In this document: positions 1,512-10,295 of the stretch, piece by piece
How positions within the stretch are numbered: position 1 is the first letter of the stretch
Layout: the number at the start of each line of letters is the position of its first letter
Assembly (NCBI RefSeq): GCF_039904985.1
Contig: NZ_CP157005.1
Span: 3,801,501 to 3,865,500, forward strand
DNA length: 64,000 nt
From: Methylomonas sp. AM2-LC
GTDB taxonomy: Bacteria > Pseudomonadota > Gammaproteobacteria > Methylococcales > Methylomonadaceae
Direction: 5' to 3'
The notes under the pieces: model-generated
The model's database searches: none
What the model saw: only the letters and a program-made list of their open reading frames with translations
What the model was told of the DNA's origin: nothing
Program-made: the position numbers and the translations under genes

Positions 1512-2003
1512 TTACTGAATTTTAACCATTATTTTTTGATATAAATACCCCAAAAACCATAAAACAATAGCTCCAGCGAAGGTTGGAAACACTATAAATT
1601 GCCAGTCTGGATGTGTTAAAAAAATAATCACCGCATTTGAACCTGCTGGTGGATGAACGCTTCGAGTGATCAGCATCATAACCAAAGCCGTACTCACAGC
1701 AAGCGCCATGCACCACCAATGAGGACCAACAAAGTTAAGAAACAGTAAACCTATGGTAGAACACAATAAGTGTCCAACAAATAAGTTGCGGGGTTGAGAA
1801 AAGGCGGCCTCTGGAAAACCAAATAATAATACGCAAGATGCACCAAAAGAGCCTAATATCCAGGGGTGGCCCGAAATTTCACTTAATATGGCAATTGCAC
1901 TTATTGCTAAACACGAAGCTAACCAAACGCTGATAATTTTGGTAATTGAAGGTCTTGGTGGTTGGGCTGTTACGCTATTTTTGGTTTTATTTCTAAGCGT
2001 CAT
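1512..2003 (-). CDS. HPP-family integral membrane protein
   Basis: Small membrane protein with four to five hydrophobic segments and the family hallmark HPPAGSNA near residue 117. HPP proteins are linked to nitrite transport in some phototrophs, but the function in most bacteria is unknown. The ATG at 2003 is chosen because a GGAAGGA ribosome-binding site sits 8 bases upstream; an in-frame ATG at 2030 has no such signal. It follows formate dehydrogenase on the same strand with an 80-bp gap. An inverted repeat (AAACTCATGC at 1443-1452 and GCATGAGTTT at 1504-1513) brackets the gene end and may form a long-loop terminator. Confidence 0.85.
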   Translation of the reverse strand: MTLRNKTKNSVTAQPPRPSITKIISVWLASCLAISAIAILSEISGHPWILGSFGASCVLLFGFPEAAFSQPRNLFVGHLLCSTIGLLFLNFVGPHWWCMALAVSTALVMMLITRSVHPPAGSNAVIIFLTHPDWQFIVFPTFAGAIVLWFLGYLYQKIMVKIQ

Positions 2004-2082
2004 AAATACTGTCCTTCCATCCAAGTCCATTCAAAGGATACCGGTGTTAACACTGGCAACCCAATTTATCAAACGCCTGCTA

Positions 2083-3285
2083 TCAATCTTTTTTAAATTT
2101 GGCCGCTTCTTCAGAGCCGCCAGTTGCGTTGCCTTTGCTATAGGAATGTGCACCCACACCTGCTAACTGGCCACCTTGCACAACCAGGTATTCATCACGA
2201 ATAGGACGTCCTTCAAAATAGCATTCCAGAATTTCGCGAGTACCTGCTGCATAACGTGTTTGCGCGGACAAACTGGTACCGGAAATATGCGGTGTCATAC
2301 CATGATTTGGCATAGTACGCCAAGGATGGTCATTGGGTGCAGGTTGCGGGAACCACACATCACCGGCATAACCTGCCAATTGCCCACTTTCCAAAGCATT
2401 AACAATCGCATCGCGGTCACACAGTTTGCCACGCGCAGTATTAATCAGATAGGCACCACGTTTGAAGTTCTGCAACGATTGTTCGTTAATCATGTGCTCA
2501 GTTTCTGGATGCAATGGACAGTTCAAGGTCACCACATCACACACTTTAGTTAAACTTTCCAGACTGGAGTGATAGGTAAGATTTAGTTCTTGTTCTACAG
2601 CTTCTGGCAAACGATGGCGATCCAAATAGTGTAATTTCACATCAAACGGTTTAAGCAGGCGCAGTACTCGCAAGCCAATACGACCGGCAGCTACAGTCCC
2701 CACATTCATCGCCTCCAGATCGTATGACCTGGCCACGCAATCGGCAATATTCCAGCCACCTTTGATCACCCAGTTGTAAGAGGGGATGTAATTGCGTACC
2801 AAAGCCAAAGTCATCATAACCACATGTTCGGCAACGCTATTACTGTTGCAGTAGGTCACTTCTGCAACAGTAATACCACGATCAATGGCAGCCTGTAAAT
2901 CGGTATGGTCGGAACCAATCCCTGCAGTAACAATCATTTTCAGATTTTTGGCTTTAGCAATACGTTCGGCCGTCATGTAAGCGGGCCAAAATGGCTGCGA
3001 AATGACGATTTCAGCATCATGCAGTTCACGGTCCAGAACGCTATCATCACCGTCTTTACTGGAAGTCACAACCAGTTCATGACCGTTTGCCTCCAGATAT
3101 TTACGCAAACCTAGTTCGCCCGAAACACTACCCAGCAATGCACCCGGTTTAAAATCGATTGCTTTCGGAGTAGGCAATGTTTGACCGTCAGGATAGCATG
3201 CAGGTTGCGGTAGATCATCACGTGCATAAGACGTTGGATAGCCATCAATAGGATCGTCATAAAGTACACAAACAATTTTAGCCAT
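2083..3285 (-). CDS. fdh: NAD-dependent formate dehydrogenase (metal-free)
   Basis: Oxidises formate to CO2 with NAD+, the last step of C1 dissimilation and an NADH source. At 400 residues it is nearly identical in length and motifs to the methylotroph enzyme of Pseudomonas sp. 101. Visible are the opening VLYDDPIDGYP, the substrate-pocket region ISQPFWPAY and TAGIGSDH, the asparagine of TYCNSNSVAEH, the nucleotide-binding loop AAGRIG followed by the NAD-selecting aspartate of YLDRHR, the catalytic arginine in NTARGKLCDRD and the catalytic histidine in MTPHISGTS. The C-terminus GNATGGSEEAAKFKK is family-typical. It belongs to the D-2-hydroxyacid dehydrogenase superfamily and needs no molybdenum or tungsten. 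A LysR gene lies 130 bp upstream on the same strand. Confidence 0.97.
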   Translation of the reverse strand: MAKIVCVLYDDPIDGYPTSYARDDLPQPACYPDGQTLPTPKAIDFKPGALLGSVSGELGLRKYLEANGHELVVTSSKDGDDSVLDRELHDAEIVISQPFWPAYMTAERIAKAKNLKMIVTAGIGSDHTDLQAAIDRGITVAEVTYCNSNSVAEHVVMMTLALVRNYIPSYNWVIKGGWNIADCVARSYDLEAMNVGTVAAGRIGLRVLRLLKPFDVKLHYLDRHRLPEAVEQELNLTYHSSLESLTKVCDVVTLNCPLHPETEHMINEQSLQNFKRGAYLINTARGKLCDRDAIVNALESGQLAGYAGDVWFPQPAPNDHPWRTMPNHGMTPHISGTSLSAQTRYAAGTREILECYFEGRPIRDEYLVVQGGQLAGVGAHSYSKGNATGGSEEAAKFKKD

Positions 3286-3415
3286 TTTACTTTTACCTCG
3301 TTGTTGATTGGATAACTGGACACAGTCTCAAATACACCATGTCTGATTGCTCCCGGCCGGGTAATAGCATTGTTGCTTTAAAGCTTATTTGCGTCTAATC
3401 GTTTCTAAATATAGC

Positions 3416-4333
3416 TTAATAACTCCCAGTTATTAATGAATCAAATCTATGTTGTAAATCCAGATTTTGCGCAATATTCCAAGCGGCATCCTGTATCGGT
3501 GACAGCAAATCCTGACGACGTACAATCAAACCTACTTCTCTTGATAACTCAGGTATTAAGGGTAGAACAGTTACTTCTTGATTTAACCCAAACTGACACA
3601 GCATACTATGTGGTACCACACTGTAGAGCCCAGCACTACGCACATGGGCGTATAAAGCAAACAATGAGTCTGTCTCCAGCATAACTTTAGGCGTAGCGTT
3701 AGCCTCGCGAAATGCGGCGTCAATCAGCCGACGGTTTTGCATATTTTGGGTCAACAAACACAAAGGAAAGTCGGCAACATCGCCCCAGCTTAAATGATTT
3801 TTAACCACTTTCAGAGCTGGATTACTGGCCAGAAGCACGTATCGCTCCCGGTATAAGGGTAAAACATTGAAACCTTTTAACCTGGGATCATCCAGATAAG
3901 TTAAGCCCAAATCCAACTCAAAACTATCAAGCTGACGCATTATTTCTTCGGCAGATAGGGAAACCAATTTGATGGCTATACCTGGATATTGCGTCTGACA
4001 GGGTGCCGTTAATAGTGGAGTCACAGGCAGAGTGGTGGGTATGGCCCCTATACGTAACACACCCGTCAGTTGCTGACTATATTGCACTGCGGCCTGGCGC
4101 ATCCCTTCCCAGTTTTGCGCCAAAATACGTGCCCATTGTAAAACCCTCTCACCTTCTTCGGTAAAGCCCTGAAAGCGTTGCCCTCGTTTAATAAGAGTTA
4201 TGCCCAGCTCTTCTTCAAAATGTTGAATAGCTGTTGATAGTGCGGGTTGAGAAACATGACTTATTTCAGCTGCTCGACCGAAATGTTCAGTTTTTGCCAG
4301 TGCCAATAGATAATGTATTTGACGAATGTACAT
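3416..4333 (-). CDS. LysR-family transcriptional regulator, likely controls formate dehydrogenase
   Basis: At 305 residues it is full length for LysR regulators. The N-terminal winged helix-turn-helix shows the usual pattern LLALAKTEHFGRAAE then SQPALSTAIQHFEEELG (residues 9-44); the rest is the periplasmic-binding-like effector domain. The general look is that of LysR proteins found beside formate dehydrogenase operons, but I cannot fix the ligand. It is transcribed toward fdh with a 130-bp gap that contains the palindrome CCCGGCCGGG (3352-3361). Most LysR regulators are divergent from their targets, so codirectional placement is slightly unusual and cotranscription is possible. Confidence 0.9.
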   Translation of the reverse strand: MYIRQIHYLLALAKTEHFGRAAEISHVSQPALSTAIQHFEEELGITLIKRGQRFQGFTEEGERVLQWARILAQNWEGMRQAAVQYSQQLTGVLRIGAIPTTLPVTPLLTAPCQTQYPGIAIKLVSLSAEEIMRQLDSFELDLGLTYLDDPRLKGFNVLPLYRERYVLLASNPALKVVKNHLSWGDVADFPLCLLTQNMQNRRLIDAAFREANATPKVMLETDSLFALYAHVRSAGLYSVVPHSMLCQFGLNQEVTVLPLIPELSREVGLIVRRQDLLSPIQDAAWNIAQNLDLQHRFDSLITGSY

Positions 4334-4467
4334 ACAGTTTGAAAACCAGGCAGTGGAGCGTTTGGACAGAAGAGTCGCCAGTATTGACTATAGACCAGCA
4401 CGAATAGCCATCTCAGAACACAACCTTGGCAAAATTAGATATGCGATGTTTTAGGCGGATAGGGTTA

Positions 4468-5643
4468 TCAATTAACCATCAGTCTTTCCGCAATTGTATC
4501 GTTATTTCCCAAATAATAGTAACCGTCGCCATGATTGACTACTCTTTGAAATGGCAAAGCATCAAGCTCATTGATATAAACTATGGCATGTGTTTTTATC
4601 AGGCAATAGATATCATCACCCTCTAGTAGAGCCATTTCTTGACAGGCACCCGGTGTAATTTCAGCCAACAATGTACCACCGCAATCAATTTGTGCGATTA
4701 TACTTTCACCACAGGGAATGAGAGTGCAAATACGGCCCTTTACCTGGTTTTGTATGGAAATACCATTGATATAACTGCGTGATAATGCAATGTCGTTAGC
4801 ACGGATTGAGACTTGGGTTTGACTACCAATAGCCAGATGTGGACGTAAAGGCATCGTTAATGGCAAGCCAAAACTATCGGCAATGCTGTATCCAGCTGAT
4901 TGAGAATGCTGACGTATTGTGACTGTTAAGATATTATCAATCTGGCGAATACCAAGATAGCGCAAAATACCGGGTTGTTTGGCAACATCCCTTAGGCTAC
5001 CTGTTTGTAGTATTTGCCCTTGCTCCAACACAATTAACCGATCAGTTAACTCCAGAATCTCACTGAGTGACTGACTGGCATATAACACAGGCAAACCAAA
5101 TTCTTCCTGTAAGCGTTTCAGTATCGGCAGTAATTGTGCACGATAGCCATTTCCAATTGCAGCAAAAGTATCGTCTAACAACAACAATTTTGGTGATTTA
5201 AGTAGCGATCTGGCCAGTGCGACGCGCTGACGTTCGCCAGCTGACAGCATATTGATGGTGTAATCCAGAATCGAACCCAATTCCAACAATCCAATCAAAT
5301 AGTCTAATTTAAACAATCGGCGTTGCTTAAATGTGCGCTTGTAAACATAACTGAGATTCTCACGAACGGTTTCAGCTAAATAAGCAGAGTCGATTTGCAA
5401 AACTGCTCCAATTGGCCTTTGCTCACGCGGCATAACAATGCCTTTACCACTATCGAATAAAATTTTACCATCCAAAATGATATGACCACTCTGTGGCTGT
5501 ATCGTCCCTGCAATTAAATTTAGAATGGTACTTTTACCTGCTCCCGATTTTCCGTATAAACCAACACTGGTATCGTTTAGTGAAATTTGCGTAGTCAAAT
5601 CAAAATGTCCGCGACGTAGTTTGACATTCATTTCCAACAACAT
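4468..5643 (-). CDS. ModC-like ABC ATPase with degenerate catalytic motifs and a TOBE/Mop tail
   Basis: Resembles ModC, the ATPase of molybdate importers, over 391 residues: ABC domain (about 1-225) then a molybdate-binding TOBE/Mop region (about 285-355). Walker A GKSGAGKS (31-38) and the Q-loop glutamine (83) are intact, but the signature is LSAGE rather than LSGGE (133-137), the Walker B glutamate is aspartate (LLLLDD, 153-158), the switch histidine is glutamine (ASQ, 189-191) and the D-loop reads FAAIG with its aspartate lost. The nearby ModC at 8.5-9.6 kb has all these residues. No permease gene adjoins it. It is divergent from modE. A regulatory or sensing role is inferred; slow ATPase activity remains possible. 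Confidence 0.8.
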   Translation of the reverse strand: MLLEMNVKLRRGHFDLTTQISLNDTSVGLYGKSGAGKSTILNLIAGTIQPQSGHIILDGKILFDSGKGIVMPREQRPIGAVLQIDSAYLAETVRENLSYVYKRTFKQRRLFKLDYLIGLLELGSILDYTINMLSAGERQRVALARSLLKSPKLLLLDDTFAAIGNGYRAQLLPILKRLQEEFGLPVLYASQSLSEILELTDRLIVLEQGQILQTGSLRDVAKQPGILRYLGIRQIDNILTVTIRQHSQSAGYSIADSFGLPLTMPLRPHLAIGSQTQVSIRANDIALSRSYINGISIQNQVKGRICTLIPCGESIIAQIDCGGTLLAEITPGACQEMALLEGDDIYCLIKTHAIVYINELDALPFQRVVNHGDGYYYLGNNDTIAERLMVN

Positions 5644-5795
5644 TTTACCCCCAACACCTAGATCACAGAAAGTTACACCTAACAGCGAGTTACGGTGACA
5701 TCAAGTCAAAAATGTGTTGGGTCGCATGGATTCGCCAAACCGATTCCAAAACATTTTTTATGCTGTTTAATTTTTTGTTATTATAACGCAAACTT

Positions 5796-5819
5796 CGATA
5801 TATACAATAGAATACTACG
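5796..5819. promoter_or_regulatory. candidate ModE-binding operator
   Basis: Half-site CGATATAT, an 8-bp spacer, then ATACTACG. The Escherichia coli ModE consensus is CGTTATAT, 8 bp, ATATAACG, so spacing is identical and 13 of 16 half-site positions agree. It lies 79 bp upstream of the modE ATG, between modE and the divergent ModC-like gene, so it could serve both. A weaker half-site (TATAACG, 5782-5788) precedes it. Confidence 0.5.
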
Positions 5820-5897
5820 CAATAAACTTGAGCTATTTTAATAGAGGCACATAGAGGGGAGATTTTTTGAGCTTACAAAAGCTTTTAAACTAACGAC

Positions 5898-6719
5898 ATG
5901 TTAAATAAAGTAAATGTCTATAAAAATCCAGACTGGATAAAGGCCGAAATTACCTTAGCTGAGACTTTCGACCATCGAATGATTTCACTACTCAGAGCAA
6001 TCAATCACAGTGGCTCAATTAGTCAAGCAGCAAAACAGATAGAACTTAGCTATAGATGTGCTTGGCTATTGGTCGAAAAAGCCAATACTTTTTCGTCACA
6101 ACAGCTGATTAATTGTTCTAAAGGTGGAAAAAACGGTGGCGGCGCTTGCCTAACCAGTTCTGGAAAGGCGCTGTTAGCCTTGTTTAGCCGACTGGAAGAA
6201 CAACATAGCTTATATTTACAACGAGTTAATCAATGTTTAAATGGTGATGCTTTTGCACAATCTCTGTTAGAACCGTTGAACATCAACACCAGAAGTTATA
6301 ATAAACTATTTGCTAAAGTGATTCACTTACAACCTAACCTAGAAGATACGGACATTATTGTGCAATTATACGGGGGCGAACGAGTTGTTGCTTCTTTGAG
6401 CTTGGACGAATTTGAACCCTTAAACTTAAGTATTGGCAAAACAGTTTTACTATTGATTGGCAACGAAGATATTGATATCGCAAATGCGTTTGACACGAGT
6501 CAGTTTTCAACACGTAATTCTCTGCATAGTTCTATAGTTGGCCTGAAACTACTGGCAGGAGCTTATGAAGTAGTATTGCGTGTGATTGGCGGCGATACCC
6601 TGCGTACCATAGTAACGGCAGATAGCGTGGAAAACTTGAAGCTTAAACCCGGCATATCAATTCGCGCTTTATTTAAAAGTTGTGATGTAATACTTGCAGT
6701 TAAAGATGATGGTCGCTAA
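5898..6719 (+). CDS. modE: ModE-type molybdate-dependent transcriptional regulator
   Basis: Molybdate-responsive repressor/activator. At 273 residues (E. coli ModE has 262) it has an N-terminal LysR-type winged helix with MISLLRAINHSGSISQAAK (28-46) followed by the expected recognition segment, the GGKNGGGACLT wing (76-86), then two Mop (TOBE) domains around 125-195 and 200-270. The pattern TRNSLHSSIVGLK matches the molybdate-site strand of Mop domains. It is divergent from the degenerate ModC-like gene and 4 kb from modBC. The ribosome-binding site before the ATG is weak. No nearby permease supply gene modA is seen. Confidence 0.9.
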   Translation: MLNKVNVYKNPDWIKAEITLAETFDHRMISLLRAINHSGSISQAAKQIELSYRCAWLLVEKANTFSSQQLINCSKGGKNGGGACLTSSGKALLALFSRLEEQHSLYLQRVNQCLNGDAFAQSLLEPLNINTRSYNKLFAKVIHLQPNLEDTDIIVQLYGGERVVASLSLDEFEPLNLSIGKTVLLLIGNEDIDIANAFDTSQFSTRNSLHSSIVGLKLLAGAYEVVLRVIGGDTLRTIVTADSVENLKLKPGISIRALFKSCDVILAVKDDGR

Positions 6720-6844: not shown

Positions 6845-8098
6845 TTAACAAGTTTTGAGTCTAAAAAATCTAATTAAAAGCAAATCTCTTAAAAACAGCA
6901 ATAAGAAAACAGGATTTGTTGCTAAATATCGCCTAACTAAACGGGTTTCGTTCATCAAGCGGTAAGCCCATTCAAGACCATAACTCTGCATCCAGCGTGG
7001 AGCACGTTTAAGGTGTCCAGAATGAAAGTTAAATGCGGCTCCAACACCCAGTTGCACAGGTACATTTATACGATGCAAATGGGTCGCTATCCATTTTTCT
7101 TGTTTTGGCGCACCTAACCCAACCCATAAAAAATCGGGATTAGCGGCATTGATTATATCAACTAGTTGTTGATCTTCTTCTTCGGTTAAGGCTCTGAACG
7201 GCGGCGAATGCCAACCTACTATTGCAACACCCGGATAACGTTGTTGCATTGCGTCCACTAAATCGTTCAATATAGGCCCAGTACCACCCAGAAAAAAATG
7301 TGTCCAATTTTTGTTGCGTCCTTCGTCCAGACATTTCAACATCAAATCCGGCCCACACAAACGGCTTGCAGTAGAATCACCCTGTACTAGTTTGGCGTAC
7401 CAAACTAACGGTAAACCATCCATAGCATTGAAAGATTTATGGTTAATATTCAGTAATTCTTTATCTTCCAGAGTGCTGACCACCGTATGCACATTAGCAA
7501 AACAAACCTGATGTGAAACTTTTGAAATAATCCACTGCTGAAATAGATTAAGTGCTTGATCATAATTCAGATTAGAAAACTTTATACCCAGAACATTGGT
7601 AGATGAACCAGGTTGTATCCAAATTGATCTTTGTGTCAAACGAGCAATCAGTAACATACCCGTTAATGCAGCACTGAATAGAAATATCGGTGAAGGCAAA
7701 GGCACAGGTGTAATGTCTAAAGCAGAAGCACTTGTAGTGTTATTTGCAGCAATCTGGCTAAATGATTGCGCATTGACCGAATAGATAAAATCTTCACAGG
7801 CAACATTAGATACGTTGAGTGCATCGGCTACACAAGGTTTGGCAGAAAAATTTGTATTCTGATTATTTATTGTATAAGAACTAAACAATAGTTCAGCACC
7901 GCTTTCTACAGACTTTACATTAACCAAACCCACAGATGTTTCGAAATAATAACTACCCTGTTGCCGTGTGGACTGATCTACAGACAAGCCCAAGTTTATG
8001 ACATGACGGATGTCCGCATAACCTGGTATTAGAAAAAAAAGAGAGGAGAACAATAATAAAAACTTTAAGTCTTTGTAAAAATATGTATTTTTTCTCAC
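6845..8098 (-). CDS. fusion: exported PEP-CTERM-like segment + WecG/TagA/CpsF glycosyltransferase
   Basis: 417 residues in one uninterrupted frame. Residues 10-28 form a signal peptide; 30-130 are an unassigned, probably periplasmic segment with two cysteines; 132-135 read VPLP, followed by a hydrophobic stretch (136-151) and basic ARLTQR. That is the layout of VPLP/PEP-CTERM exosortase sorting tails, which normally end a protein. Here a full WecG/TagA/CpsF domain follows (about 166-410: VLGIKFSNL, NVHTVV, AMDGLPLVW, SRLCGPDLM, LGGTGPILN, GAPKQEKWIA). This family adds N-acetylmannosaminyl or related sugars to undecaprenyl-linked intermediates. The predicted topology puts the transferase in the cytoplasm, which is where it works. 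Start is GTG with an AAGGGGGG ribosome-binding site. Ends convergently with modE. Confidence 0.85.
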   Translation of the reverse strand: MRKNTYFYKDLKFLLLFSSLFFLIPGYADIRHVINLGLSVDQSTRQQGSYYFETSVGLVNVKSVESGAELLFSSYTINNQNTNFSAKPCVADALNVSNVACEDFIYSVNAQSFSQIAANNTTSASALDITPVPLPSPIFLFSAALTGMLLIARLTQRSIWIQPGSSTNVLGIKFSNLNYDQALNLFQQWIISKVSHQVCFANVHTVVSTLEDKELLNINHKSFNAMDGLPLVWYAKLVQGDSTASRLCGPDLMLKCLDEGRNKNWTHFFLGGTGPILNDLVDAMQQRYPGVAIVGWHSPPFRALTEEEDQQLVDIINAANPDFLWVGLGAPKQEKWIATHLHRINVPVQLGVGAAFNFHSGHLKRAPRWMQSYGLEWAYRLMNETRLVRRYLATNPVFLLLFLRDLLLIRFFRLKTC

Positions 8099-8314
8099 TT
8101 ACCCCCCCTTATTTTTATATAGTTATCAACATCATTGCATGTTTAGATACTGTTACATTTAGGTTATTAAATTACCTGAGCAACAATCTTTACCCTGCCA
8201 TACATTAATTCGTTATGATTATTAAAACATATCGACTATAAAAGTCAACGCACAATTGGCAACCAGAATGTATTTTTCTGTTTATGACGCGCATCAAACA
8301 TTGCGTATCTTGGT

Positions 8315-8477: not shown

Positions 8478-9593
8478 TTACTCTATGAGCGCAACCGATT
8501 TCACCTGCACCCAAAACTCTTTCCCAACAACAACCTGTAAATCAGCTGCGGCACGCTTAGTTAGTCGGGAGATCAAAATGCTATCACCTATCTGAATACG
8601 CAGCAATGCCAAACCAGGATGTTCATCATTTGCCATGGATTCTATGCGTCCTCGCAAAATATTCTGAATACTGCTTGGTCCAGGATGCTCTTGCGCCAAG
8701 CTAACATCTCTTGCCAACACTCGCACTCGAACTTTGCTGCCGATGGCTAGTCCATGATCTCTTATCCATAAACTGCCACCGGGAAAATCAATTTTAGCCA
8801 AACACCATTGTGTGTCGATCATGGCAATTCGAGCCGCCAGAATAGCCCCAACATCTTCACCCAAACGCAAGGGTAAATCCAGCCGCGCCAATGTTTCCAG
8901 CAAAGGACCGCTTGCTAATATTCTACCCGCCTCCAGAACCAGCAGATGATCCGCTAGACGAGCCACTTCATCCGGCGAATGACTAACATACAATATAGGA
9001 ATATGCAGTTCATTATGTAATTGCTCCAGATAAGGCAAAACTTCCTGCTTTCGCTTAATATCCAAAGACGCCAAAGGTTCATCCATCAATAAAATACGTG
9101 GATTGACAGCCAATGCACGTGCAATTCCCACGCGTTGCCGCTCACCGCCGGAAAGCCGATCCGGCTTACGATCCAGCAAATGACCAATACCCAACAGCTC
9201 GACAGCTTGCTCCAATCCGACCTGATGCTGCCCAGTAATGCGTTTTATGCCATAGCGCAAGTTTCCCAGTACGGTCAGGTGCTGAAACAGACTGGCTTCT
9301 TGAAAGACATAGCCCAACTGACGTTTATGGGTCGGTATCCAAATATCCTCATCCTGCCAAACTTCCCCATTGATCGACAAAAAACCTTGCGTAGCCTGTT
9401 CCAACCCAGCAATACAACGTAGCAAGCTGGTTTTTCCTGAACCGGAACTACCAAACAAGGCAGTGATGCCATGACCGGGAATTGAAATATCAATATCTAG
9501 ATTGAAGCCAGTCCAATTTAGTTGAAAGCGGGCTTTGATATCATGACTGTTTAGTCCACTTTCTGCTTCGAGCGCCATATCTGAAGTACCCAT
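8478..9593 (-). CDS. modC: molybdate ABC transporter ATP-binding protein ModC
   Basis: Energises molybdate uptake together with ModB. At 371 residues it has all canonical ABC motifs: Walker A GSSGSGKT (48-55), Q-loop Q98, signature LSGGE (147-151), Walker B LLMDE (168-172), D-loop LASLD, switch His205 in VSHS. The C-terminal TOBE/Mop molybdate domain follows (about 300-365). The first 43 bases overlap modB, so the genes are translationally linked; an in-frame ATG at 9578 is an alternative start and neither has a strong ribosome-binding site. It is the functional counterpart of the degenerate copy at 4.5-5.6 kb. Confidence 0.95.
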   Translation of the reverse strand: MGTSDMALEAESGLNSHDIKARFQLNWTGFNLDIDISIPGHGITALFGSSGSGKTSLLRCIAGLEQATQGFLSINGEVWQDEDIWIPTHKRQLGYVFQEASLFQHLTVLGNLRYGIKRITGQHQVGLEQAVELLGIGHLLDRKPDRLSGGERQRVGIARALAVNPRILLMDEPLASLDIKRKQEVLPYLEQLHNELHIPILYVSHSPDEVARLADHLLVLEAGRILASGPLLETLARLDLPLRLGEDVGAILAARIAMIDTQWCLAKIDFPGGSLWIRDHGLAIGSKVRVRVLARDVSLAQEHPGPSSIQNILRGRIESMANDEHPGLALLRIQIGDSILISRLTKRAAADLQVVVGKEFWVQVKSVALIE

Positions 9594-10228
9594 AACATCA
9601 GGAAAGAAAAAATTAACAACACGGCAGACAATTGGTGTGCTTGCGTATATTCCAAAGCCTCAACATGATTATAGATTTGTATGGATGCAACACGAGTAAC
9701 CCCTGGAATATTACCCCCCAACATCAGCACCACACCGAATTCGCCAACGGTGTGAGCAAAAGTTAACACACCTGCAGTAAAGAAACCCGGTAGCGTTAAG
9801 GGTACTACAACGCTAAAAAAGGCATCTAGTGGTGAAGCGCGTAATGTGGCGGCAACTTCTAAAGGCCTGTTACCAATAGACTCGAAGGCATTCTGCAAAG
9901 GTTGCACCATGAACGGCAAAGAATAAACCACTGATGCAATAACCAACCCGCCAAAACTGAAAGGTAACATAGTCATTCCAAAAGTTTTGGTGAGATACCC
10001 AATAGGGCCATTGGGACCCATTGCCAACAACAGATAAAAACCCAATACGGAAGGAGGCAACACTAACGGTAAAGATACCAATGCGCCAATCGGACCTTTC
10101 CATCCTGTTTGGGTACGGGATAACCACCAAGCGATAGGTGTGCCAATAACAAGCAAAATCAGCGTAACTAAACTTGCCAACTGGATAGTCAGCCAAATGG
10201 CCTCCAAATCGTTATCAGTCAATATCAT
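9551..10228 (-). CDS. modB: molybdate ABC transporter permease ModB
   Basis: Inner-membrane permease with about five to six helices. It opens MILTDNDLEAIWLTIQLAS, the usual ModB start, and contains the EAA-type cytoplasmic loop EVAATLRASPLDAF (about residues 128-141) that docks the ATPase. The ATG at 10228 is chosen for its AAGGAA ribosome-binding site 8 bases upstream; an ATG at 10258 would add ten atypical residues. The gene overlaps modC downstream. The periplasmic binding protein ModA, normally encoded just upstream, is absent: tsaB is there instead, 67 bp away on the same strand. Confidence 0.95.
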   Translation of the reverse strand: MILTDNDLEAIWLTIQLASLVTLILLVIGTPIAWWLSRTQTGWKGPIGALVSLPLVLPPSVLGFYLLLAMGPNGPIGYLTKTFGMTMLPFSFGGLVIASVVYSLPFMVQPLQNAFESIGNRPLEVAATLRASPLDAFFSVVVPLTLPGFFTAGVLTFAHTVGEFGVVLMLGGNIPGVTRVASIQIYNHVEALEYTQAHQLSAVLLIFSFLMLWVLQIWRSKQKVD

Positions 10229-10295
10229 GGCTATTATTTCCTTATCGTAGAAGCTCAAAATAAGCGATCAGCAAGGTATTGCACAACTATACAGT

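Follow-up and report, generated by a model that had tools for sequence, protein, structure and literature searches.

Can a formate dehydrogenase that needs no molybdenum be governed by the supply of molybdenum? The question is raised by a locus in the 5.39 Mb genome of Methylomonas sp. AM2-LC, within a stretch of 64,000 nucleotides (contig NZ_CP157005.1, positions 3,801,501 to 3,865,500; the window). There, fdh, the gene for a metal-free formate dehydrogenase (FDH), stands with a lysR gene, the gene for an altered paralogue of the molybdate transporter ATPase ModC, and a divergent modE-like gene. We call the paralogue, and the clade to which it belongs, ModC*. Genes and strands are as an original prediction had described them; it had further proposed that formate oxidation switches between a molybdenum-dependent FDH (Mo-FDH) and the metal-free enzyme according to molybdenum supply, with ModC* as a molybdate-binding regulator. 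We lean slightly towards the reading that the locus links lysR-fdh, a formate cassette, with the molybdate regulon and that shortage of molybdenum turns on the metal-free FDH through ModE. Such a switch is likely for part of the Methylococcales and possible for the window. The features on which the argument draws are these:

2083..3285, minus strand: fdh, metal-free NAD-dependent formate dehydrogenase of 400 amino acids (NF005750, nearest PDB structures, active-site motifs)
3416..4333, minus strand: LysR-family regulator, the usual neighbour of fdh in Methylococcales (Pfam HTH_1 and LysR_substrate)
4468..5643, minus strand: modC*, ModC paralogue with a degenerate ATPase domain and a retained TOBE/Mop domain (motifs, TIGR02142 score)
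5796..5819, no strand: weak palindrome resembling a ModE box, 152 bp upstream of modC* and 78 bp upstream of modE (matrix score 12.0)
5898..6719, plus strand: modE-like gene, divergent molybdate-responsive regulator (alignment with 1o7l, TIGR00638)
8211..8234, no strand: second weak palindrome resembling a ModE box, in the modC/wecG interval (matrix score 12.7)
8478..9593, minus strand: modC, canonical molybdate transporter ATPase (TIGR02142, 422.5 bits, cut-off 285.05; motifs intact)
9551..10258, minus strand: modB, molybdate transporter permease (TIGR02141, 232.6 bits, cut-off 182.6)

On the minus strand the order is modB-modC, wecG, the interposed plus-strand modE, and modC*-lysR-fdh; in this last run, 134 bp separate modC* from lysR and 130 bp lysR from fdh. 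The functional modBC genes of the original prediction are intact by score, and modC also by motif, but modC starts 2.8 kb from ModC* and not 4 kb.

The window fdh encodes a metal-free NAD enzyme. Its product scored 704.5 bits against NF005750 and passed the curated threshold (cut-off 329), and 2gsd and 2nac, which we take to be the formate dehydrogenases of Moraxella C2 and Pseudomonas 101, are among the closest solved structures. The motifs TYCNS, NTARGKL, TPHISG and YLDRHR were all found; presumably they hold the active-site Asn, Arg and His and the NAD-selecting Asp. The enzyme thus shares family, over the full length, and active-site motifs with those of Pseudomonas sp. 101 and Moraxella C2; unlike them, it has a molybdate-regulon neighbourhood, and in some relatives the linked lysR lies behind a ModE box. 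An effect of molybdenum on the metal-free FDH of Pseudomonas sp. 101 is said to have been described in older literature. Also encoded in the window genome is the alpha subunit of a Mo-type FDH (933 bits, cut-off 666), whose neighbours we read as FdsB, FdsG and FdhD from size, order and sequence start (fdsGBA).

Why methanotrophs keep several formate dehydrogenases is called an open question in the available part of PMC8527097. In two methanotrophs the metal-free FDH is upregulated at atmospheric methane, with no regulator named in the passages at hand (PMC11519548), and the accessible portions of PMC3347622 and PMC5023235 hold nothing on molybdenum control of the metal-free FDH. Among the open-access literature matches listed, no title or abstract start mentions a link of molybdenum or ModE to metal-free FDH, or a degenerate ModC.

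The operator was sought in the intergenic regions divergent from modE in related loci. The palindrome CGTTATKTA-N6-TAMATAACG was present in 22/22 of them, matching at 15-18 of 18 positions, the pattern having been read off the same 22 sequences. Matches to E. coli half-sites with a 10-bp gap did not exceed shuffles in nearly all of these regions. The layout is that of the ModE consensus printed in the part of PMC2700814 at hand, ATCGCTATATA-N6-TATATAACGAT. From 20 distinct modE-intergenic boxes we built a position weight matrix (PWM); its scores are circular at those sites, no lysR promoter was used in it, and some training genomes were among those scanned later.

With this matrix, a box scoring at least 15 was found within 300 bp before LysR in 4/29 cases as compared with 4/357 control open reading frames (ORFs; Fisher p = 0.0015), 29 of 39 LysR hits having entered the test since the ORF caller had lost some genes. 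When only loci without mod genes were considered, the counts were 3/20 and 3/283 (p = 0.004). The four LysR genes with a box are those of genomes G175, G224, G277 and G282; measured to the lysR start, three of the boxes are 13-17 bp upstream (genera g20, g26 and g27) and that of G175 is 211 bp upstream. Genome scans allowing up to 2 mismatches returned 36 matches in 14 genomes (0-5 each). Each lysR-linked box is one of 2-4 matches in its genome, and three of the 36 precede an adjacent lysR-fdh pair (G175, G277 and G282). In G107 and G147, the run of genes ending in modC*-lysR-fdh has a box at its head. What a minority of Methylococcales genomes show, then, is an fdh-linked lysR that either follows a ModE box or closes a mod/modC* run headed by one.

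In the mechanism that we propose, molybdate-loaded ModE would repress lysR-fdh, a repressor role that fits boxes placed 13-17 bp before lysR. Under shortage of molybdenum the metal-free FDH would replace the Mo-FDH FdsGBA; LysR may add a formate signal, and ModC* and Mop would be accessory members of the mod system. As in an E. coli-type ModE regulon, the regulator is ModE-like and the operator is laid out as CGNTATNTA-N6-TANATAACG; unlike that regulon, the target here is linked to a Mo-independent enzyme, and the first Mop motif of the regulator is mostly changed. ModE-type proteins hold back the alternative, Mo-free nitrogenase while molybdenum is present. The same logic would apply here, a Mo-free isoenzyme being repressed in the presence of molybdenum, with the differences that the enzyme is a formate dehydrogenase and that a LysR gene stands in between.

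The genomic company of fdh bears on the same point. LysR was found in 33/42 fdh genomes, less than 500 bp from 23/46 fdh copies and less than 10 kb from 31/46. Of the 46 fdh copies, 14 have a mod gene no more than about 10 kb away, one of these (G035) counted through a short ModE-like ORF; by a rough estimate that assumes two mod loci per genome, fewer than one of the 46 would be expected to. Two of the 46 fdh loci yielded no fdh ORF, the caller keeping the longest ORF and losing some true genes. Among the 19 genomes with both ModC* and fdh, LysR lies 60-302 bp behind ModC* in eight, from seven genera (G000, G107, G160, G129, G147, G222, G083 and G085); in G083 fdh is on a different contig from ModC*-LysR, and in G085 it is 36 kb off. 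An fdh remnant lies behind ModC* in G106, and a LysR remnant close to ModC* in Methyloglobulus. Finally, fdh or its lysR adjoins modE or a porin-mod run in G082, G083, G084 and G175. The lysR-fdh unit has repeatedly come together with mod loci.

Several results weigh against molybdenum control of the unit. No mod gene was found within about 10 kb of 32/46 fdh copies, some contigs being short. The upstream regions of 25/29 LysR genes scored below PWM 5, significance was not reached in a rank test of all 29 (p = 0.13), and genome scans found no box at lysR-fdh in G161, G165 or G189. When the search walked up the operon, 6/45 fdh genes and 29/378 control ORFs had a box at PWM at least 10 (p = 0.15); the walk stops at gaps above 300 bp and so misses G107, G147, G129, G222 and G224. 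In two of the five box cases fdh does not directly follow lysR: in G224 the box precedes lysR and fdh lies 2.9 kb on, past an opposite-strand ORF (a further box lies 13 bp before modC*), and in G222 a box lies 14 bp before modC*-lysR and fdh is 4.4 kb from modC*, again past an opposite-strand ORF. The total of 36 matches is close to the 31 of a reversed-pattern control, and therefore only the position of the boxes is informative. In the window itself, the box at 5796 is weak when set against family sites scoring 26-36, and it departs from the wider pattern at 4 positions and from the narrower one at 6. A 2-mismatch box does lie 120 bp upstream of fdsG in the window genome, but it occurs in 1/30 genomes of the genus, the window's own only, the next best PWM score being 6.6. 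On this count we rejected general control of fds by ModE in Methylomonas.

These observations raise the possibility that position is all there is: lysR-fdh would have been inserted several times into mod loci and be controlled by LysR, for example in response to formate, with no role for molybdenum in the window species. The majority of lysR-fdh units without a box, the fdh copies far from mod genes, the non-significant operon-wide test and the weak window box all suit this explanation, which we consider doubtful but well conceivable. Against it speak the boxes found in three genera 13-17 bp upstream of lysR, at loci that have no mod genes and among only 2-4 matches genome-wide, and also a separate ModE copy of G175, which is a neighbour of lysR-fdh and clusters with the window ModE on long branches. 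In G175 (loci L039 and L080) ModE was matched three times, one match being beside mop-modC* and one beside lysR-fdh.

How far does control by ModE extend to the window? Residues 24-267 of the window ModE align with 1o7l (E = 6e-18), which we take to be ModE from E. coli. The protein scored 83.1 bits against TIGR00637, the N-terminal DNA-binding domain, below the cut-off of 98.5, and for this reason, the alignment with 1o7l being good, we filed it as ModE-like; its Mop domain passed TIGR00638 (69.4 bits, cut-off 55). The DNA-binding helix reads LSYRCAW, as compared with LSYKGAW in 33/37 other rows. Of the two Mop motifs, whose residues we presume to bind molybdate, the first is changed and the second kept in the window ModE and in most of the 38 ModE proteins compared. 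The boxes at 8211 and 5796 are the two best PWM matches in the 64 kb, and a score of at least 12 was reached in 3/20 mononucleotide-shuffled windows. The ModE-like operator of the original prediction is a weak box-like palindrome at 5796, which makes molybdenum control less certain in the window. The best box of the window genome lies elsewhere (1 mismatch). Because the boxes are weak, ModE has diverged, the best box is elsewhere and the fdsG box is found in 1/30 genomes, we regard the switch as possible for the window. A molybdenum link to the metal-free FDH, as predicted, finds partial support in the proximity of mod genes to fdh, the boxes at LysR genes elsewhere and the encoded fdsGBA; it is weakened by the boxless majority of genomes and by the window operator.

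A separate question is what ModC* does. As predicted, the signature, Walker B Glu, switch His and D-loop of the window protein are all altered: the signature is LSAGE instead of LSGGQ-type, Walker B is LLLLDD with Glu replaced by Asp, the D-loop is AAIG as compared with ASLD, and the switch His is Gln (ASQS as compared with VSHS). Walker A (GKSGAGKS) and the Q-loop Gln are intact. The score against TIGR02142, 267.5 bits, is under the cut-off of 285.05. By sequence motifs and predicted structure, ModC* has Walker A, the Q-loop and the ModC fold; the predicted fold is good, and the TOBE domain is kept.

The 56 distinct full-length copies of ModC* are monophyletic (support 1.0). Walker A Lys is kept in 56/56, the D-loop Asp is Gly in 54/56 and the switch His is Gln in 46/56; these tallies lean on the definition of the group, made partly by a missing intact Walker B/D-loop motif, and the tree gives the same groups. 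Loss of the Walker B Glu was rejected as a family trait, Glu being kept in 37/56, including the closest relative P0002 (86% identical). The LF of the LFxH loop after the Q-loop, a loop that we take to meet the permease in ModBC/MalK structures, is found in 0/56 ModC* as compared with 33/33 canonical and 11/11 related intact ModC. Relative to the ModC of ModABC (3d31, 2onk), the D-loop, switch His, signature and permease-side loop are thus altered or lost. Mean identity of the ATPase and C-terminal parts was 0.703 and 0.667 in 57 ModC*-like proteins and 0.712 and 0.612 in 34 canonical ones, a modest shift between groups picked by motif and over pairs of middling divergence. The invariant Cys residues of the ModC* TOBE domain were considered as a metal site and dropped, since the ModC of 3d31 also has one such Cys and so does related intact ModC. 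Motif losses of other kinds are seen in additional ModC relatives, mostly in other Methylococcales (L147, L148, L152, L155 and L074); in L147/L148 the Q-loop Gln is also lost.

ModC* lies directly behind mop in 37/56 cases, and often in mod operons. Its tie to fdh did not hold up: 43/62 ModC* genomes have no fdh and 23/42 fdh genomes have no ModC* (fragments in G113 and G188 are counted among the 62; short fragments in G096, G109 and G265 and relatives at about 40% are excluded). We therefore rejected ModC* as a marker of FDH loci. The counts likewise speak against the original proposal that ModC* itself binds molybdate and controls fdh directly or through LysR, which we now consider quite improbable in spite of the retained TOBE domain and of the eight genomes in which LysR closely follows ModC*. 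What stands is that a molybdate-binding regulator or carrier is plausible for the mod system generally. ModC* is an order-wide companion of mop and of mod operons, separate from fdh.

Could ModC* still be a working transport subunit, one that joins canonical ModC on ModB in an asymmetric pair of ATPases of which it is the degenerate member? It is often in one gene run with modABC, it has kept its ATP-binding residues with a mildly altered signature, and a ModB to share, above cut-off, is encoded in 36/37 genomes of the genus. Loss of the LFxH loop throughout the clade argues against such a pair, as does the presence of canonical ModB in just 25/56 ModC* loci (the loci span at most about 20 kb, and some far less); in these loci no permease gene of its own was seen besides canonical modB with its own modC. 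We consider a pair of this kind distinctly unlikely. Lower still we place the view that ModC* is a decaying pseudogene carried in mod operons. Catalytic motifs are lost to differing degrees, and some genomes hold only fragments (for example G096, G109, G113 and G265), but 56 full-length monophyletic copies with the same replacements in most, a good predicted fold and a mean ATPase-domain identity of 70% over pairs of middling divergence make decay very improbable. A descendant of ModC, ModC* retains the nucleotide-binding residues of Walker A and the Q-loop and the Asp of Walker B. Probably it serves as a regulator or carrier that binds nucleotide and molybdate, perhaps acting with Mop, and not as a transport motor, a role made plausible by the retained TOBE/Mop domain and the loss of transport-motor features.

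Other matches to the ModE box lie by a family of secreted-looking proteins of about 560-590 amino acids with no Pfam match, which we call ALTPW (L216:6643, which is G000:C1:1996642, and L238-L241), and near ShlB-type two-partner-secretion (TPS) transporters and MauG/CCP-like proteins. In L239, two SBP_bac_11 (ModA-like) proteins and a TPS-domain protein are near the box. The best match in the window genome is an ALTPW site, where the family member shares only 25-29% identity with the rest. In L063/L136, which are one genome, a member of the family comes after mop-modC*, and the family is also present in the degenerate-ModC loci L152 and L155. An hhalign comparison of the family with ModA gave no match. 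Possibly, the ALTPW/ShlB sites mark a ModE-controlled surface or secreted molybdenum system.

Among the neighbouring genes of the window, an ORF for a WecG/TagA-type glycosyltransferase (6845-8098) occupies the place of mop in related operons and is preceded by the weak box at 8211; its in-frame N-terminal part ends, on reading by eye, in a PEP-CTERM-like stretch, VPLPSPIFLF. Directly behind fdh is one further gene:

1512..2030, minus strand: HPP-family membrane protein (PF04982)

A protein of this family, perhaps a transporter of small anions such as formate or nitrite, directly follows fdh in 7 loci (the window, L057, L061, L081, L086, L090 and L091). A membrane-anchored protein, MsrA-like on reading by eye, often comes after lysR in fdh loci (L057, L060, L071, L077 and L078).

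A broader reading, which as a whole we hold to be rather unlikely, would credit the Methylococcales with an isoenzyme switch for formate oxidation that responds to molybdenum and was set up on several occasions as lysR-fdh came under ModE. To this it would add an apparently undescribed family of pseudo-transporter ATPases, derived from ModC, which would detect molybdate in concert with Mop and exert feedback on the mod regulon and, wherever fdh has become part of the operon, on fdh as well. If control of the metal-free FDH through ModE is true, the last step of methane oxidation would be tied to molybdenum supply, and the ModE box before the fdh-linked lysR makes this dependence cheaply testable. 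ModC* would add a conserved ATPase that has left transport.

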